NCBI GenBank assembly: GCA_009840545.1 | Contig: VXNM01000008.1 | Location: 378,339 to 442,338, forward strand | DNA: 64,000 bases | Source of the DNA: Gammaproteobacteria bacterium | GTDB lineage: Bacteria; Pseudomonadota; Gammaproteobacteria; Pseudomonadales; Azotimanducaceae | Direction of reading: 5' to 3' | The notes under the pieces: model-generated | Databases searched by the model: none | What the model was told of the DNA's origin: nothing | What the model saw: only the letters and a program-made list of their open reading frames with translations | Translations under genes and position numbers: made by a program | Shown here: positions 3,072 through 6,652 of the stretch, one piece after another | Position numbering within the stretch: position 1 is the first letter of the stretch | Layout of the letters: each line of letters starts with the position of its first letter

Positions 3072-4178
3072 ATGACCAACCAAAGCATCGAGCCAAGCCG
3101 GAATTGGTTGGACACTGCACTCCAACTACCTGTTCGTTTTGCTCAGGTGCGCGAAGATCCGCTGCTGGATTTGGAAGTCCTGCAAAGAACGCGACCCAAC
3201 TGTCGAGCCCTGATCATTGCTTCGGGAGGCTGCACAGTATGTGCACTCAATACTCTAAAACATATCGACAAAATGGTCATCGTAGACCCCAACCGAGCCC
3301 AAGTAGTGGTTGCGCGTCTCAAATTGTTGATCCAACGAGATGTACCAGCCGGCGAAAGAGCTAGCTTGCTCGGCCACGAGCCAATCAATGCTGAAGAGCG
3401 TTGGACGAAACTTGCTCGATTGGCTAGTGAGAACAATATTGATCTTCAAGACATCGGACCGAGCCGCTTTGTGGCTAGTCGCGGTTTGGATTTCATTGGT
3501 CGATACGAGATGGTATTTGGTGAACTCTCTCGTCGACTCGCAATAGACCATCACGACACCATAGTCAATCTACTACGGCAGAACGACGTAGCAAAACGCA
3601 AACATTTGTTAGATTCCGTTGACGAATTTGTCAATTGCCTTCGAGACACACTTCACGATGTGATGGATCTCTCTAACTTAGTCGAACTTTTTGGAGAGGA
3701 AGCAACACGCAATCGTCTGCAAGACTTTTCAGAGCACTTCTATCAACGAATCCTATGGGCAATTACTCGGTTGCCCACACAGTCGAATCACTTTTTGTGG
3801 CAAATATTGTTGAATCGGTCCCCACCTCGCTCTTCAGTTCCGTGGCTGGGCATGTCTCTTCAAGAACCAGCCGCTGAGATCGGGTTCCACGAGTGTTCAA
3901 TAGAGGACTTCTTAACCCAGAGTGAGCAGACCTTTGACTTCATTCATCTGTCGAACGTTCTGGATTGGCTATCGAATGAACAGGCACGAAGTCTCTTGGC
4001 TAGTACTTGGACCCACCTTGCTTCGGGAGGCTACACACTAATCCGGCAACTCAATTCAAAGTTGAACATTCCAAGTTTGAACGATCAATTTGAGTGGCTG
4101 ACTCAAGACGCGAACAAAATGCTGGCTAGAGATCGAAGCTTCTTCTATCGCGATCTTCACCTCGCTCGTAGATTGTGA
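3072..4178 (+). CDS. DUF3419 (BtaA-like) S-adenosylmethionine-dependent 3-amino-3-carboxypropyl transferase
   Basis: DUF3419 proteins are Rossmann-fold SAM enzymes. The characterised member BtaA transfers the 3-amino-3-carboxypropyl group of SAM to diacylglycerol in betaine-lipid synthesis. The SAM site is visible at residues 46-61 (ALIIASGGCTVCALNTL, the glycine/cysteine loop of the family) followed by the acidic strand end VDPN at 71-74. A second conserved segment near residues 292-313 (FDFIHLSNVLDWLS) fits the acceptor-side motif. At 368 residues it is slightly shorter than typical BtaA. No BtaB-like N-methyltransferase follows, so betaine lipid is not the obvious product. Instead the next gene, a GNAT enzyme, overlaps by 4 bases (GTGA), implying translational coupling. 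The ATG at 3072 is chosen because an in-frame TAG lies at 3048. Acceptor substrate unknown. Confidence 0.8.
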   Translation: MTNQSIEPSRNWLDTALQLPVRFAQVREDPLLDLEVLQRTRPNCRALIIASGGCTVCALNTLKHIDKMVIVDPNRAQVVVARLKLLIQRDVPAGERASLLGHEPINAEERWTKLARLASENNIDLQDIGPSRFVASRGLDFIGRYEMVFGELSRRLAIDHHDTIVNLLRQNDVAKRKHLLDSVDEFVNCLRDTLHDVMDLSNLVELFGEEATRNRLQDFSEHFYQRILWAITRLPTQSNHFLWQILLNRSPPRSSVPWLGMSLQEPAAEIGFHECSIEDFLTQSEQTFDFIHLSNVLDWLSNEQARSLLASTWTHLASGGYTLIRQLNSKLNIPSLNDQFEWLTQDANKMLARDRSFFYRDLHLARRL

Positions 4179-5140
4179 CGTCAACACACGCCTGGAGTAA
4201 ACCTCCGGAGGTCTATTGCAGGCTGCTTCAAGAGTTTGAACGGCAGTTCGACTATCCGTTGACGGACACACGAAGGTTTCGAATTGAGCACTCCCTTGAC
4301 TATGAACGATTCTTCGCCGCAATGGGTGATTCTGTCACAGTTGTTGTAGAGAACGAAGGAAAAATTCTCGGAGTTCTGAGTGCTGCTATCCGTAAGCTCC
4401 ACCTTACAGAGAATAAGACTGAGAAATGGCTCTACATTGGAGATGTGAAAATCGAACCTTCGGAGAGAGGTCGGCACGTACTAAAAAGACTGTTTGTCGC
4501 TACTCGAACCTGGGTGGGCAACAGATGCACGAAGGGTTATTCTGTCGTGATGGATGGCACTGGTGTTACACCACACATGTACACTGGCAGACTAGGAATC
4601 CCGGAGTTTCGAGCTATACAGAGCGTCAAGCTTCTGGCTTTCTCTACACAGAGCTTCAAGCAGCATTCGGTTGACTCGGCAATGGTCCATACGAGTGAAG
4701 ATCCAAGCTCTTTCGATGAGATCATGAAAGCCATCCGAACACGGAGTCCAGCACCTCGCTGGTCGATCGAGAATATAACATTTCGTTCTCGTTTAAGTCC
4801 GGTCTGTTTCACCGTTCCCAGAACTGGATGTATAGGATTCCTGGAAGACACACGCAGTGCAAAGAGACTGTACGATTCCGACTCGGGCGAACTCCTCTAC
4901 GCGCACATGTCCAATGTTCAGTACGAGTCAATTGAAGAGTTAGTTCCCATAGTCGTCGAAGCTGCGAAGACGGCGCACACTCATGGACTTACGCACATGC
5001 TCCTTGCCGTCCCGGCGACAGAGTGCAGCATACTCACAGATGCTTTCGACAAGACGCAGTACGATGTCTTTTCCTCAACCGTCTATGCCACAGAGAAAAC
5101 GAAAGGCTATGAGATGCCCATCAGCTCATCTGAAATCTAG
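4175..5140 (+). CDS. GNAT-family N-acetyltransferase
   Basis: 321-residue protein with an N-terminal GCN5-related acetyltransferase fold. Residues about 45-115 contain the usual strand-helix layout, with GDVKIEPSERGRHVLKRLF as the acetyl-CoA-binding motif A (strand, then R-x-x-G-type loop, then helix). The C-terminal 150 residues resemble no domain I recognise; they could be a second, degenerate GNAT lobe. The gene starts with GTG at 4175, sharing GTGA with the stop of the DUF3419 gene, and is followed 14 bases later by the di-iron oxygenase-like gene. The context suggests it acylates an amine produced or used by its neighbours, which is inference. GNAT assignment is fairly sure, the substrate unknown. 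Confidence 0.7.
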   Translation: MTSTHAWSKPPEVYCRLLQEFERQFDYPLTDTRRFRIEHSLDYERFFAAMGDSVTVVVENEGKILGVLSAAIRKLHLTENKTEKWLYIGDVKIEPSERGRHVLKRLFVATRTWVGNRCTKGYSVVMDGTGVTPHMYTGRLGIPEFRAIQSVKLLAFSTQSFKQHSVDSAMVHTSEDPSSFDEIMKAIRTRSPAPRWSIENITFRSRLSPVCFTVPRTGCIGFLEDTRSAKRLYDSDSGELLYAHMSNVQYESIEELVPIVVEAAKTAHTHGLTHMLLAVPATECSILTDAFDKTQYDVFSSTVYATEKTKGYEMPISSSEI

Positions 5141-5154
5141 TCAATGCAATCACT

Positions 5155-5877
5155 ATGGTCAGTCACGTGAATAGCTCCACCGCTCCATCTGTAACAGCTG
5201 TCGCTGAACGAGTGAAGAAAGAGTGTGGCATCGATACAAACATCTACTTCAGGTCGCTGCACGACGGCTCGATGTCGCTCGACGGATTTAGGCGATCACA
5301 GGAACAGTTCTTTTTTTGTGTCGCCTTCTTTTCACGTCCGATGATGGCTCTAGTGGGACGAAAACCCAACCCCAGCCGCAGACTCGAAATCCTGCGAAAT
5401 GTGGTGGAAGAACACGGACAGTTTGAAGAGTCCGCCTTTCACCAAAACACGTTTGAGTCATTCTTGCGGACAATTGGAAGTGATGTTCAAGAACTTGAAG
5501 ACCAAAGACGACAGTGGCCTGAGGTTCGCGCTTTCAACAGTTCCCTGATCGGCACATGCCTCTTGGACGAACTGGAAGTAGGCATTGCTTGCATGGGCAT
5601 TATCGAGTACTGCTTTGTGTCAATTTCGACCCGTATTGCAGAGGAAGTGGTGCAGCGAGATTGGTTGAGAGAACAGGATCTTGTGCATTACAGGATTCAT
5701 GCAGACATTGACATACGACACGCACAAGACTTTTTTGAATTGCTGGAAGACTCTTGGGTCATGGGTAAACGCCGGGTTTGGATCGAGCAAGGACTCCGTT
5801 TGGGCGCACACATCTTTGACCGCCTCTACTCAAGCCTGCACGCTTCAGCTCTAAATCCGGCCCCAACTGTCGATTGA
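5155..5877 (+). CDS. Haem-oxygenase-like di-iron enzyme (iron-containing redox enzyme family)
   Basis: 240-residue all-helical protein of the haem-oxygenase-like di-iron oxidase superfamily, whose members (UndA, BesC, the SznF central domain, CADD) use O2 to oxidise or fragment amino acids, fatty acids and amines. Candidate iron ligands are visible: the acidic-His segment VVEEHGQFEESAFH at residues 83-96, Glu151 in IIEYCF, and the H-x3-D-x2-H triad His182, Asp186, His189 in the segment beginning HYRIHADIDIRHA. Length matches single-domain members. It is the last gene of the DUF3419-GNAT unit. Start is ATG 5155; a second start option at GTG 5167 would cost only four residues. A PqqC/TenA relative is the alternative, but the ligand pattern favours the di-iron group. 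Confidence 0.75.
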   Translation: MVSHVNSSTAPSVTAVAERVKKECGIDTNIYFRSLHDGSMSLDGFRRSQEQFFFCVAFFSRPMMALVGRKPNPSRRLEILRNVVEEHGQFEESAFHQNTFESFLRTIGSDVQELEDQRRQWPEVRAFNSSLIGTCLLDELEVGIACMGIIEYCFVSISTRIAEEVVQRDWLREQDLVHYRIHADIDIRHAQDFFELLEDSWVMGKRRVWIEQGLRLGAHIFDRLYSSLHASALNPAPTVD

Positions 5878-5970: not shown

Positions 5971-5999
5971 ATTGAGTCACATCCTGGATGTGACTCAAT
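5971..5999. promoter_or_regulatory. Perfect 29-bp palindrome (14-bp arms, 1-nt centre)
   Basis: The left arm ATTGAGTCACATCC is followed by one T and the exact reverse complement GGATGTGACTCAAT. It lies about 60 bases upstream of the DoxX start and 95 bases after the di-iron enzyme stop. No T-run follows on the plus strand, so a classical intrinsic terminator is not well supported. It could be a repressor operator for the DoxX-DUF1801 pair or a terminator-like hairpin in the mRNA. Confidence 0.6.
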
Positions 6000-6061: not shown

Positions 6062-6652
6062 ATGGTTGTGGAAGTGGTTACTAAAGGTTATCGATGGTTT
6101 CTCGACGTATTGAGACCTATTGACGGATTGGGCCCACTAGCGCTTCGAATTTTTCTTGCGCCCGTCATGATCGAAGCAGGTTGGAGAAAAATCGTTGGAT
6201 TCGATTCGACGGTCTCTTGGTTTTCCAATATGGGACTACCCTTTCCCGAAGTCATGACTACTCTCGCAGCGGCCGCAGAATTTGGTGGAGGGATTTTTCT
6301 CATTGTTGGATTCTGTACAAGACTCGCTGCGATCCCCCTTATGGTTACTATGCTGGTGGCAGCTTTCTTGGTTCACGCAGAAAATGGCTGGTTAGCAATT
6401 TCTGATTCGAGTAGTATTTTTGCGAACGAACGAGTCATGGAAGCCGCTCCCAAGAAAGAGATCATCAAAGATATCGTGCGTGAGCACGGAAACTATCGTT
6501 ACCTCACCAGTTCGGGTTCGATTACGATTCTCAACAACGGAATGGAATTCGCAATCACCTATTTCGTCATGCTGTTGGCGTTGATGTTCACAGGTGGAGG
6601 GAGGTACGTTAGTGTTGACTACTGGATTGCGCGATGGCGCAACATTGTGTGA
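6062..6652 (+). CDS. DoxX family membrane protein
   Basis: Integral membrane protein of the DoxX/YphA-type family, a four-helix group linked to quinone or thiol redox stress in some bacteria. The family signature is visible: RIFLAPVMIEAGWRKIVGF near residues 29-47 and LAAAAEFGGGIFLIVGFCTR near 65-84, followed by hydrophobic helices near 88-103 and 162-178. A loop of about 55 polar residues (110-160) between helices 3 and 4 is longer than in most DoxX proteins. The gene lies ten bases upstream of the DUF1801 gene, so they are likely cotranscribed. The function in this organism cannot be stated. Start ATG 6062. Confidence 0.85.
   Translation: MVVEVVTKGYRWFLDVLRPIDGLGPLALRIFLAPVMIEAGWRKIVGFDSTVSWFSNMGLPFPEVMTTLAAAAEFGGGIFLIVGFCTRLAAIPLMVTMLVAAFLVHAENGWLAISDSSSIFANERVMEAAPKKEIIKDIVREHGNYRYLTSSGSITILNNGMEFAITYFVMLLALMFTGGGRYVSVDYWIARWRNIV

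Follow-up and report, generated by a model that had tools for sequence, protein, structure and literature searches.

The stretch analysed here (the window) comprises 64,000 nucleotides of contig VXNM01000008.1 (positions 378,339 to 442,338 of the forward strand; assembly GCA_009840545.1) from a gammaproteobacterium of the family Azotimanducaceae, and carries three adjacent genes (the trio) encoding a DUF3419 protein, an acyltransferase predicted to have a double-GNAT fold of the N-myristoyltransferase (NMT) type, and a haem-oxygenase-like di-metal oxidase/oxygenase (HDO). The same three genes are found side by side in distant bacteria, and they may constitute a minimal biosynthetic unit for an aminolipid derived from S-adenosylmethionine (SAM), built by aminocarboxypropyl transfer, N-acylation and di-iron oxidation, the likeliest of the readings considered and one for which we judge the balance of evidence to be even. 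The parts of the trio belong to known superfamilies; their combination was not found in the open-licence literature searched, as judged mostly from titles and the beginnings of abstracts, in which the available passages on DUF3419 deal with algae, betaine lipids and a plant-pathogenic fungus.

All three open reading frames (ORFs) are intact and lie on the plus strand. The first (3072..4178, ATG start) encodes a DUF3419 protein of 368 amino acids that belongs to a divergent, non-BtaA subfamily and is proposed to be a SAM:acceptor 3-amino-3-carboxypropyl transferase; the second (4175..5140, GTG start) encodes the predicted acyltransferase of 321 amino acids, which ends in Ser-Ser-Glu-Ile, and the third (5155..5877, ATG start) the HDO of 240 amino acids. 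An earlier note on this DNA, made from the sequence alone, had described a unit in which the first two genes overlap by four bases and the third follows after 14 bases, and both distances were borne out.

The occurrence of the trio was explored in 58 genomes, namely the window's own, 17 congeners, 19 members of the same family and 21 of the same order (genomes and loci are cited by our own G and L numbers). Genes 1 and 2 were found in the same 10 genomes, the window's own and nine of the 17 congeners, and gene 3 is present in those 10 too, always in the order DUF3419-GNAT-HDO. No copy of any of the three was found in the other eight genomes of the genus (18 in all), of which three are assemblies less than 90% complete. 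The HDO alone was also matched, more distantly, in two genomes of the same order (G049, E 7.2e-20, in two pieces; G057, E 7.5e-4), in neither of which gene 1 was found by this search; the relative in G049 (L031/L033) thus lies in a genome without DUF3419 of the trio type. The flanking genes vary within the genus: one arrangement is common to the window and two relatives, a second is seen in one genome and a third in six, for one of which only the downstream side is known. As the flanks change while the trio stays, the three genes travel together, and their all-or-none co-occurrence despite these changes argues for a coupled unit. Only the two closest relatives (L012, L013) retain the 4-base overlap of genes 1 and 2; in L014 the overlap is 8 bases, and in L015-L020 a gap of 47 bases separates the genes.

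A wider scan of 84,980 species genomes, using patterns derived from the DUF3419 alignment of trio members, returned 44 loci, from which two weak DUF3419 matches without partners (L086, L087) were dropped. Among the 42 loci left, nine of them from congeners, 40 have an HDO gene and 40 a GNAT gene, and both stand beside DUF3419 in 38. Three incomplete loci reach a contig edge at the place of the missing gene (HDO in L053 and L061, GNAT in L081), and the fourth is that of Legionella worsleiensis (L057). Five further loci (L092, L093, L094, L112, L113) contain all three genes, bringing the overall figure to 43 of 47. This survey of genome neighbourhoods confirmed the coupled unit claimed in the earlier note, which had named lack of conservation of the triad as a sign against its reading. 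By record title the carriers are Gammaproteobacteria, Verrucomicrobia, Planctomycetota, Chloroflexi, a deltaproteobacterium, a Sandaracinaceae bacterium and an unassigned bacterium, and the trio spans at least five phylum-level groups; Haloferula sp. BvORR071 and Verrucomicrobium sp. BvORR106 are among the cultured carriers. The genes are arranged as DUF-GNAT-HDO, HDO-desaturase-(PAP2)-DUF-GNAT, HDO-DUF-GNAT or DUF-HDO-GNAT. The co-occurrence of the three genes is more than chance. Pairwise divergences of the three proteins correlate over 31 loci (r 0.949, 0.894 and 0.895, with none of 2000 permutations as high in each case), which indicates shared descent and does not by itself speak for function.

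In the pathway proposed here, the DUF3419 enzyme would move the 3-amino-3-carboxypropyl group of SAM to the hydroxyl of a lipid alcohol, for example diacylglycerol, which would yield methylthioadenosine and an ether-linked head group of the homoserine type. The NMT-type double-GNAT would then N-acylate the alpha-amine of this head group from an acyl thioester, with the enzyme's own C-terminal carboxylate (Glu/Asp-Ile-COO-) serving as general base as in NMT, and the di-iron HDO would oxidise the resulting compound in its amino-acid head or its acyl chain, perhaps cleaving a C-C bond or desaturating it. A SAM-derived homoserine-type adduct that is formed, acylated and oxidised had been envisaged in the earlier note; the coupled unit, the SAM motif and the di-iron ligands now support it in part, and we still infer every substrate, the order of the steps, the lipid nature and the product, the chemistry being taken by analogy from the enzyme families. 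The ornithine lipids made by OlsB/OlsA offer a parallel, as a GNAT-fold N-acyltransferase builds an acyl-amino-acid lipid in that route too; the amino acid there is free ornithine, whereas the head group of the trio product would come from SAM. The more specific proposal of a new lipid class, in which a SAM-derived aminocarboxypropyl glycerolipid is N-acylated by a bacterial enzyme through C-terminal-carboxylate chemistry, until now described for eukaryotic NMT, and rearranged by a di-iron oxidase, is tentative and somewhat doubtful.

Partner genes in other phyla bear on the nature of the product. Profiles for the desaturase (from six proteins) and for PAP2 (from three) were built here and run on the 42 loci. 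A desaturase-fold gene lies beside the trio in 24 of them (L054, L056 and 22 whose titles give Verrucomicrobia lineages), only a fragment matching the profile in L054 and L077, and a PAP2 phosphatase gene in nine, mostly from Verrucomicrobia; L056 joins desaturase and PAP2 in one frame of 645 amino acids, and in L053 and L055, both from Verrucomicrobia, the profiles detected neither. Among the proteins scanned with Pfam, four were confirmed to have the desaturase fold and three to be PAP2 proteins, and a search for solved relatives gave none for the desaturase-fold protein and unrelated-looking matches only for the PAP2 protein. On a plasmid of Mycobacterium riyadhense (L094, 10153-15814) the genes are ordered DUF3419-HDO-GNAT-MmpL, with a GNAT that ends in NTAEI and a DUF3419 frame interrupted near its start. 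In Verrucomicrobia, the lipid alcohol would come from the PAP2 phosphatase, and the desaturase-fold membrane enzyme would further modify the product, hydroxylation of the head group being, from what the sequences suggest, as possible as desaturation of the acyl chain; on the plasmid, the MmpL transporter would export the product. This operon context leans to a lipid, and it is to this side that the alternative left by the earlier note, a natural product or a modified lipid, now inclines. At the L. worsleiensis locus (L057, 5414-8871) the HDO frame is broken and a pyridoxal-phosphate-dependent decarboxylase gene precedes DUF3419, its best sub-threshold match being L-2,4-diaminobutyrate decarboxylase.

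A different product is nevertheless conceivable, namely a small diffusible N-acyl amino acid, a lactone-like signal or a natural product instead of a membrane lipid: DUF3419 would use a small acceptor or release a cyclised form, the NMT-type enzyme would acylate it and the HDO would trim it. In the available part of one account, the substrates linked to characterised HDOs are mostly fatty acids or amino acids, within natural-product pathways (PMC13108848); a free amino acid is the acceptor of the double-GNAT acyltransferase HisAT (PMC12219266, available in part); and a resistance-nodulation-division (RND) efflux gene precedes the trio of the window. We take this explanation to be unlikely, though deserving of weight, as the PAP2, membrane desaturase-fold and MmpL partners point to a lipid and, besides desaturase and PAP2, each flanking gene cluster is shared by six of the 48 compared loci at most, the functions of most of these clusters being unannotated. 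In a cluster shared by three loci, the member from L062 is an AMP-binding protein.

Gene 2 had been annotated simply as a GNAT enzyme, and the structure model has that fold; the assignment can be sharpened to a predicted double-GNAT of the NMT type, whose C-terminal residue is nearly invariant and aligns with the position that is catalytic in NMT. By Pfam, the protein has sub-cut-off GNAT matches only (best Acetyltransf_9, 23.4 against a cut-off of 25; another, 17.9 against 20.7), a homologue (L078) being above the cut-off of Acetyltransf_1 (22.9 against 20.7), and sequence searches for solved double-GNAT relatives returned generic or chance matches only. The model has a confident double-GNAT fold (predicted local distance difference test, pLDDT, 92.3; predicted template modelling score 0.90). 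Among the best 50 Foldseek matches all are NMTs (best E 9.4e-13, query TM-score 0.50-0.64, root-mean-square deviation (rmsd) 5.1-12.4), as are 49 of the best 50 VIA matches (best Z 19.4, rmsd 3.8, 292 residues aligned). The last pair aligned by VIA joins residue 321 of the model to residue 496 of human or 455 of yeast NMT, and with the entries of NMT1 that lack the last 2-3 residues the alignment stops at model residue 317 or 316. According to the available parts of the literature, the C-terminal carboxylate of NMT is the catalytic base, provided in the human enzyme by Gln496 (PMC7048800), and a 2016 review gives L455 as the catalytic C-terminal residue of yeast NMT and C-terminal catalysis as unique to NMT among GNATs (PMC4964394).

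The C-terminus of the double-GNAT is conserved over several phyla as Ser/Thr/Pro, then Ser/Ala/Asp, then Glu/Asp-Ile and stop; in the window the Ser-Glu-Ile codons occupy 5129..5137 of the plus strand and would specify the proposed catalytic carboxylate. The 43 distinct copies that cover the profile to its end all terminate at one column, 39 with EI and four with DI; two different Glu codons, two for Asp and three for Ile encode this ending, and each of the three stop codons occurs after it. With an additional copy that ends in DL (L151), Ile is last in 43 of 44 complete copies. Left out of the count were copies at contig ends (L053, L072, L076), with broken frames (L083) or with an early stop (L065), two weak GNAT-only matches (L090, L091) that have other endings and no DUF3419 or HDO within flanks of 1.5 kb, and repeats of the same copy (L012-L020, L088, L089, L110). 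The C-termini of the DUF3419 proteins, unlike those of the double-GNAT, are ragged across copies, and those of the HDOs are ragged as well. The likeness to NMT with a C-terminal base was predicted from the conserved ending before the fold search was made, and the fold search then returned NMTs.

The double-GNAT fold is shared with eukaryotic NMT and with HisAT/NAT16 and GLYAT; NMT and HisAT transfer acyl groups to amines of peptides or of amino acids. The trio enzyme differs from them in that it is bacterial, has no sequence similarity that could be found and has SAM and di-iron enzymes as partners. Bacterial structures of the NMT type had already been reported from structure databases, the available passages of that work giving no function for them (PMC12219266). 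Two GNAT domains per chain also occur in the bacterial proteins MshD, Eis, VipF, a clavulanate-pathway protein and NpuN, the last of which acylates a lanthipeptide lysine; these have other partners, and the passages available describe no C-terminal catalysis for them.

The near-invariant Ile could also be taken as a substrate of the HDO, consumed in a self-sacrificing reaction or in one resembling the maturation of ribosomally synthesised and post-translationally modified peptides (RiPPs), as befits its being last in nearly every copy. In the accessible sections of the respective reports, the HDO CADD uses up a Tyr and a Lys of its own chain (PMC11965152) and the HDO PolF binds L-isoleucine (PDB titles; PMC12614342). 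However, the alignment with the catalytic C-terminus of NMT explains the position of the residue without any reaction, one copy ends in Leu, and L. worsleiensis has an HDO without GNAT, although that HDO frame is broken, so that we hold this explanation to be very improbable.

The third protein is, as the earlier note had it, an enzyme of the haem-oxygenase fold with a predicted di-iron site. It matches PF14518 (E 1.3e-15, 58.1 bits against a cut-off of 28.9), and all 37 of the 37 homologues compared keep its six ligands (E86, H96, E151, H182, D186, H189); this three-histidine, three-carboxylate (3H/3C) make-up is described as typical of HDOs in the available text of PMC13108848, and metal binding and oxygen activation are predicted from it. 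The model (pLDDT 93.0) is closest to the structure of CADD (Z 26.7, rmsd 2.1, 213 residues aligned), and the profile matches CADD chains at E 3e-17 and BesC chains at E 5e-12. The fold and all six ligands are thus shared with CADD/PabS, BesC, HrmI and UndA, whereas the genomic context is new.

These closest solved relatives include para-aminobenzoic acid (pABA) synthases, and the HDO might be such an enzyme of folate synthesis, grouped with the other two genes incidentally. CADD sacrifices its own Tyr27 and Lys152, as stated in the accessible part of PMC11965152, and in the trio HDO a tyrosine (Y31), kept in 36 of 37 homologues, is one position away from the place of Tyr27. That place itself is held by F in 27, L in nine and Y in one of the 37, and the profile alignment has Lys152 within an insertion, the position ten residues from the shared Glu being I in 32, L in four and V in one. 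As these residues are not conserved at the aligned places, the NCBIfam CADD model gives 33.2 against a cut-off of 200 and the grouping is conserved across phyla, a pABA synthase is scarcely credible. The HDO DtpC is reported to be co-transcribed with katE, and no link to the trio is apparent from the available passages (PMC13232832).

The DUF3419 protein belongs to PF11899 (E 1.8e-20, 73.9 bits against a curated cut-off of 28.2), the family of the BtaA enzymes that act with BtaB in the synthesis of diacylglyceryl trimethylhomoserine (DGTS), and it carries the motifs EDPxxD, SxG and VDxN, from which aminocarboxypropyl transfer from SAM is expected. The loss of SAM-binding residues, which the earlier note had named as a sign against its reading, did not occur: E28, D29, P30, D33, S51, G52, G53 and D72 are present in 37 of 37 homologues and N74 in 36. 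A comparison of 11 trio proteins with 13 BtaAs (L095 and 12 of the 29 described below), which is fair over about the first 85 residues only because several of the BtaA sequences were cut to their N-terminal part, gave E28, D29, P30, D33, S51, G53, V71, D72, N74 and the lysine K84 (in 10 of the 11) as common to both; F23, R27 and L59 of the trio proteins are replaced by Y, W and Y in BtaA, and the identity is about 23%. Sequence searches for solved relatives of the DUF3419 protein returned generic or chance matches only. A fusion of desaturase and DUF3419, considered for the long ORFs of L064 and L066, was rejected, as Pfam matches nothing else in the additional length and the desaturase occupies a separate stretch ahead of DUF3419.

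A control set of BtaA loci was drawn from 398 Pseudomonadota genomes, which gave 32 PF11899 matches; 30 were taken with their loci, and the matches at 39.2 and 19.3 bits were left out. BtaB was detected with a single-sequence probe, and the BtaA loci were viewed within 1.5 kb. The 29 BtaB-linked BtaAs score 327-395 bits, against about 73 for the window protein in this survey. BtaB was found in 29 of 29 BtaA loci, with no HDO and no GNAT, whereas the 47 trio loci have no BtaB, 45 HDO genes and 45 GNAT genes. From the lower score and the different partners, the trio DUF3419 is considered a subfamily separate from BtaA, with an acyltransferase and a di-iron oxidase in the place of BtaB. Ordinary betaine-lipid synthesis by a BtaA-type enzyme and an unlinked BtaB, which the common Pfam family and SAM motif would favour, is therefore most improbable, the probe having covered adjacent genes only, and the earlier note's remark that no BtaB follows, which had led it to doubt a betaine lipid, holds well beyond the window.

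Several observations weigh against a SAM-derived aminolipid made with NMT-type chemistry. BtaA is remote in sequence, so that the acceptor may differ. No PAP2 or desaturase gene was found by the profile scan beside the trio in the window's genus. Three desaturase-fold proteins score highest, below the cut-offs, with the arginine gamma-hydroxylase GntB and a carotene hydroxylase, and because these best scores are with hydroxylases, acyl chains may not be what the proteins act on. At the L. worsleiensis locus, GNAT is absent from the stretch covered. The distribution is patchy: in the window's class the GNAT profile matches five of 369 sampled genomes, the window's own included and two of them weakly and without partners in the flanks; in the phylum Verrucomicrobia six of 387 match, one weakly; and the DUF3419 profile matches two of 77 genomes in the family of L. 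worsleiensis and three of 148, two weakly, in the class of the Chloroflexi carrier. No sequence kinship of the double-GNAT to NMT was detected by Pfam (E up to 0.1) or by a profile search of chains (up to E 10), and other bacterial double-GNATs are already known. The remaining VIA match, the archaeal double-GNAT 3ddd, is nearly as close as the NMTs (Z 18.3 against 19.4), so the fold alone is not specific for NMT and it is the conserved C-terminus that singles NMT out. The copy in L065 stops 37 model positions early, without the [ED]I ending, and is taken as a broken frame, which is unproven. Finally, human NMT1 without its last two residues has an unchanged kcat; the available part of this report attributes the retained activity to another Glu that takes over as base, and describes activity as nearly abolished when three residues are removed (PMC7048800).

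If the proposed aminolipid pathway is true, the trio would represent a new use of BtaA-type chemistry and would give a function and a gene context to bacterial NMT-type double-GNATs. The catalytic strategy of NMT would then serve bacterial lipid metabolism as well, and a lipid would become a possible substrate of the HDO superfamily. The small size of the trio permits expression in Escherichia coli with a lipidomics readout, so the pathway is directly testable and an undescribed metabolite could be found.

Some features of the individual loci were recorded in addition. In the family of L. worsleiensis, a further locus (L151, 1836-5735, minus strand) has DUF3419-HDO-GNAT followed by a second, different DUF3419 gene. 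In two DUF-HDO-GNAT loci from the window's class, similar-looking membrane proteins of about 250 amino acids without a Pfam match adjoin DUF3419 (L092, 5410-6171; L093, 9403-10134). In the window itself, the trio is preceded by the RND efflux gene and followed by genes for a DoxX/HvfX-type protein and a DUF1801 protein, as assigned by Pfam and NCBIfam; the DoxX-family protein (6062-6652) scores 211 bits against a cut-off of 80 with the HvfX family of copper-RiPP maturation. Promoter and terminator scans gave no more matches than in shuffled sequence. A perfect 14-base inverted repeat with a 1-base centre lies between the HDO gene and the next gene (5971..5999) and is a possible operator or transcript end.

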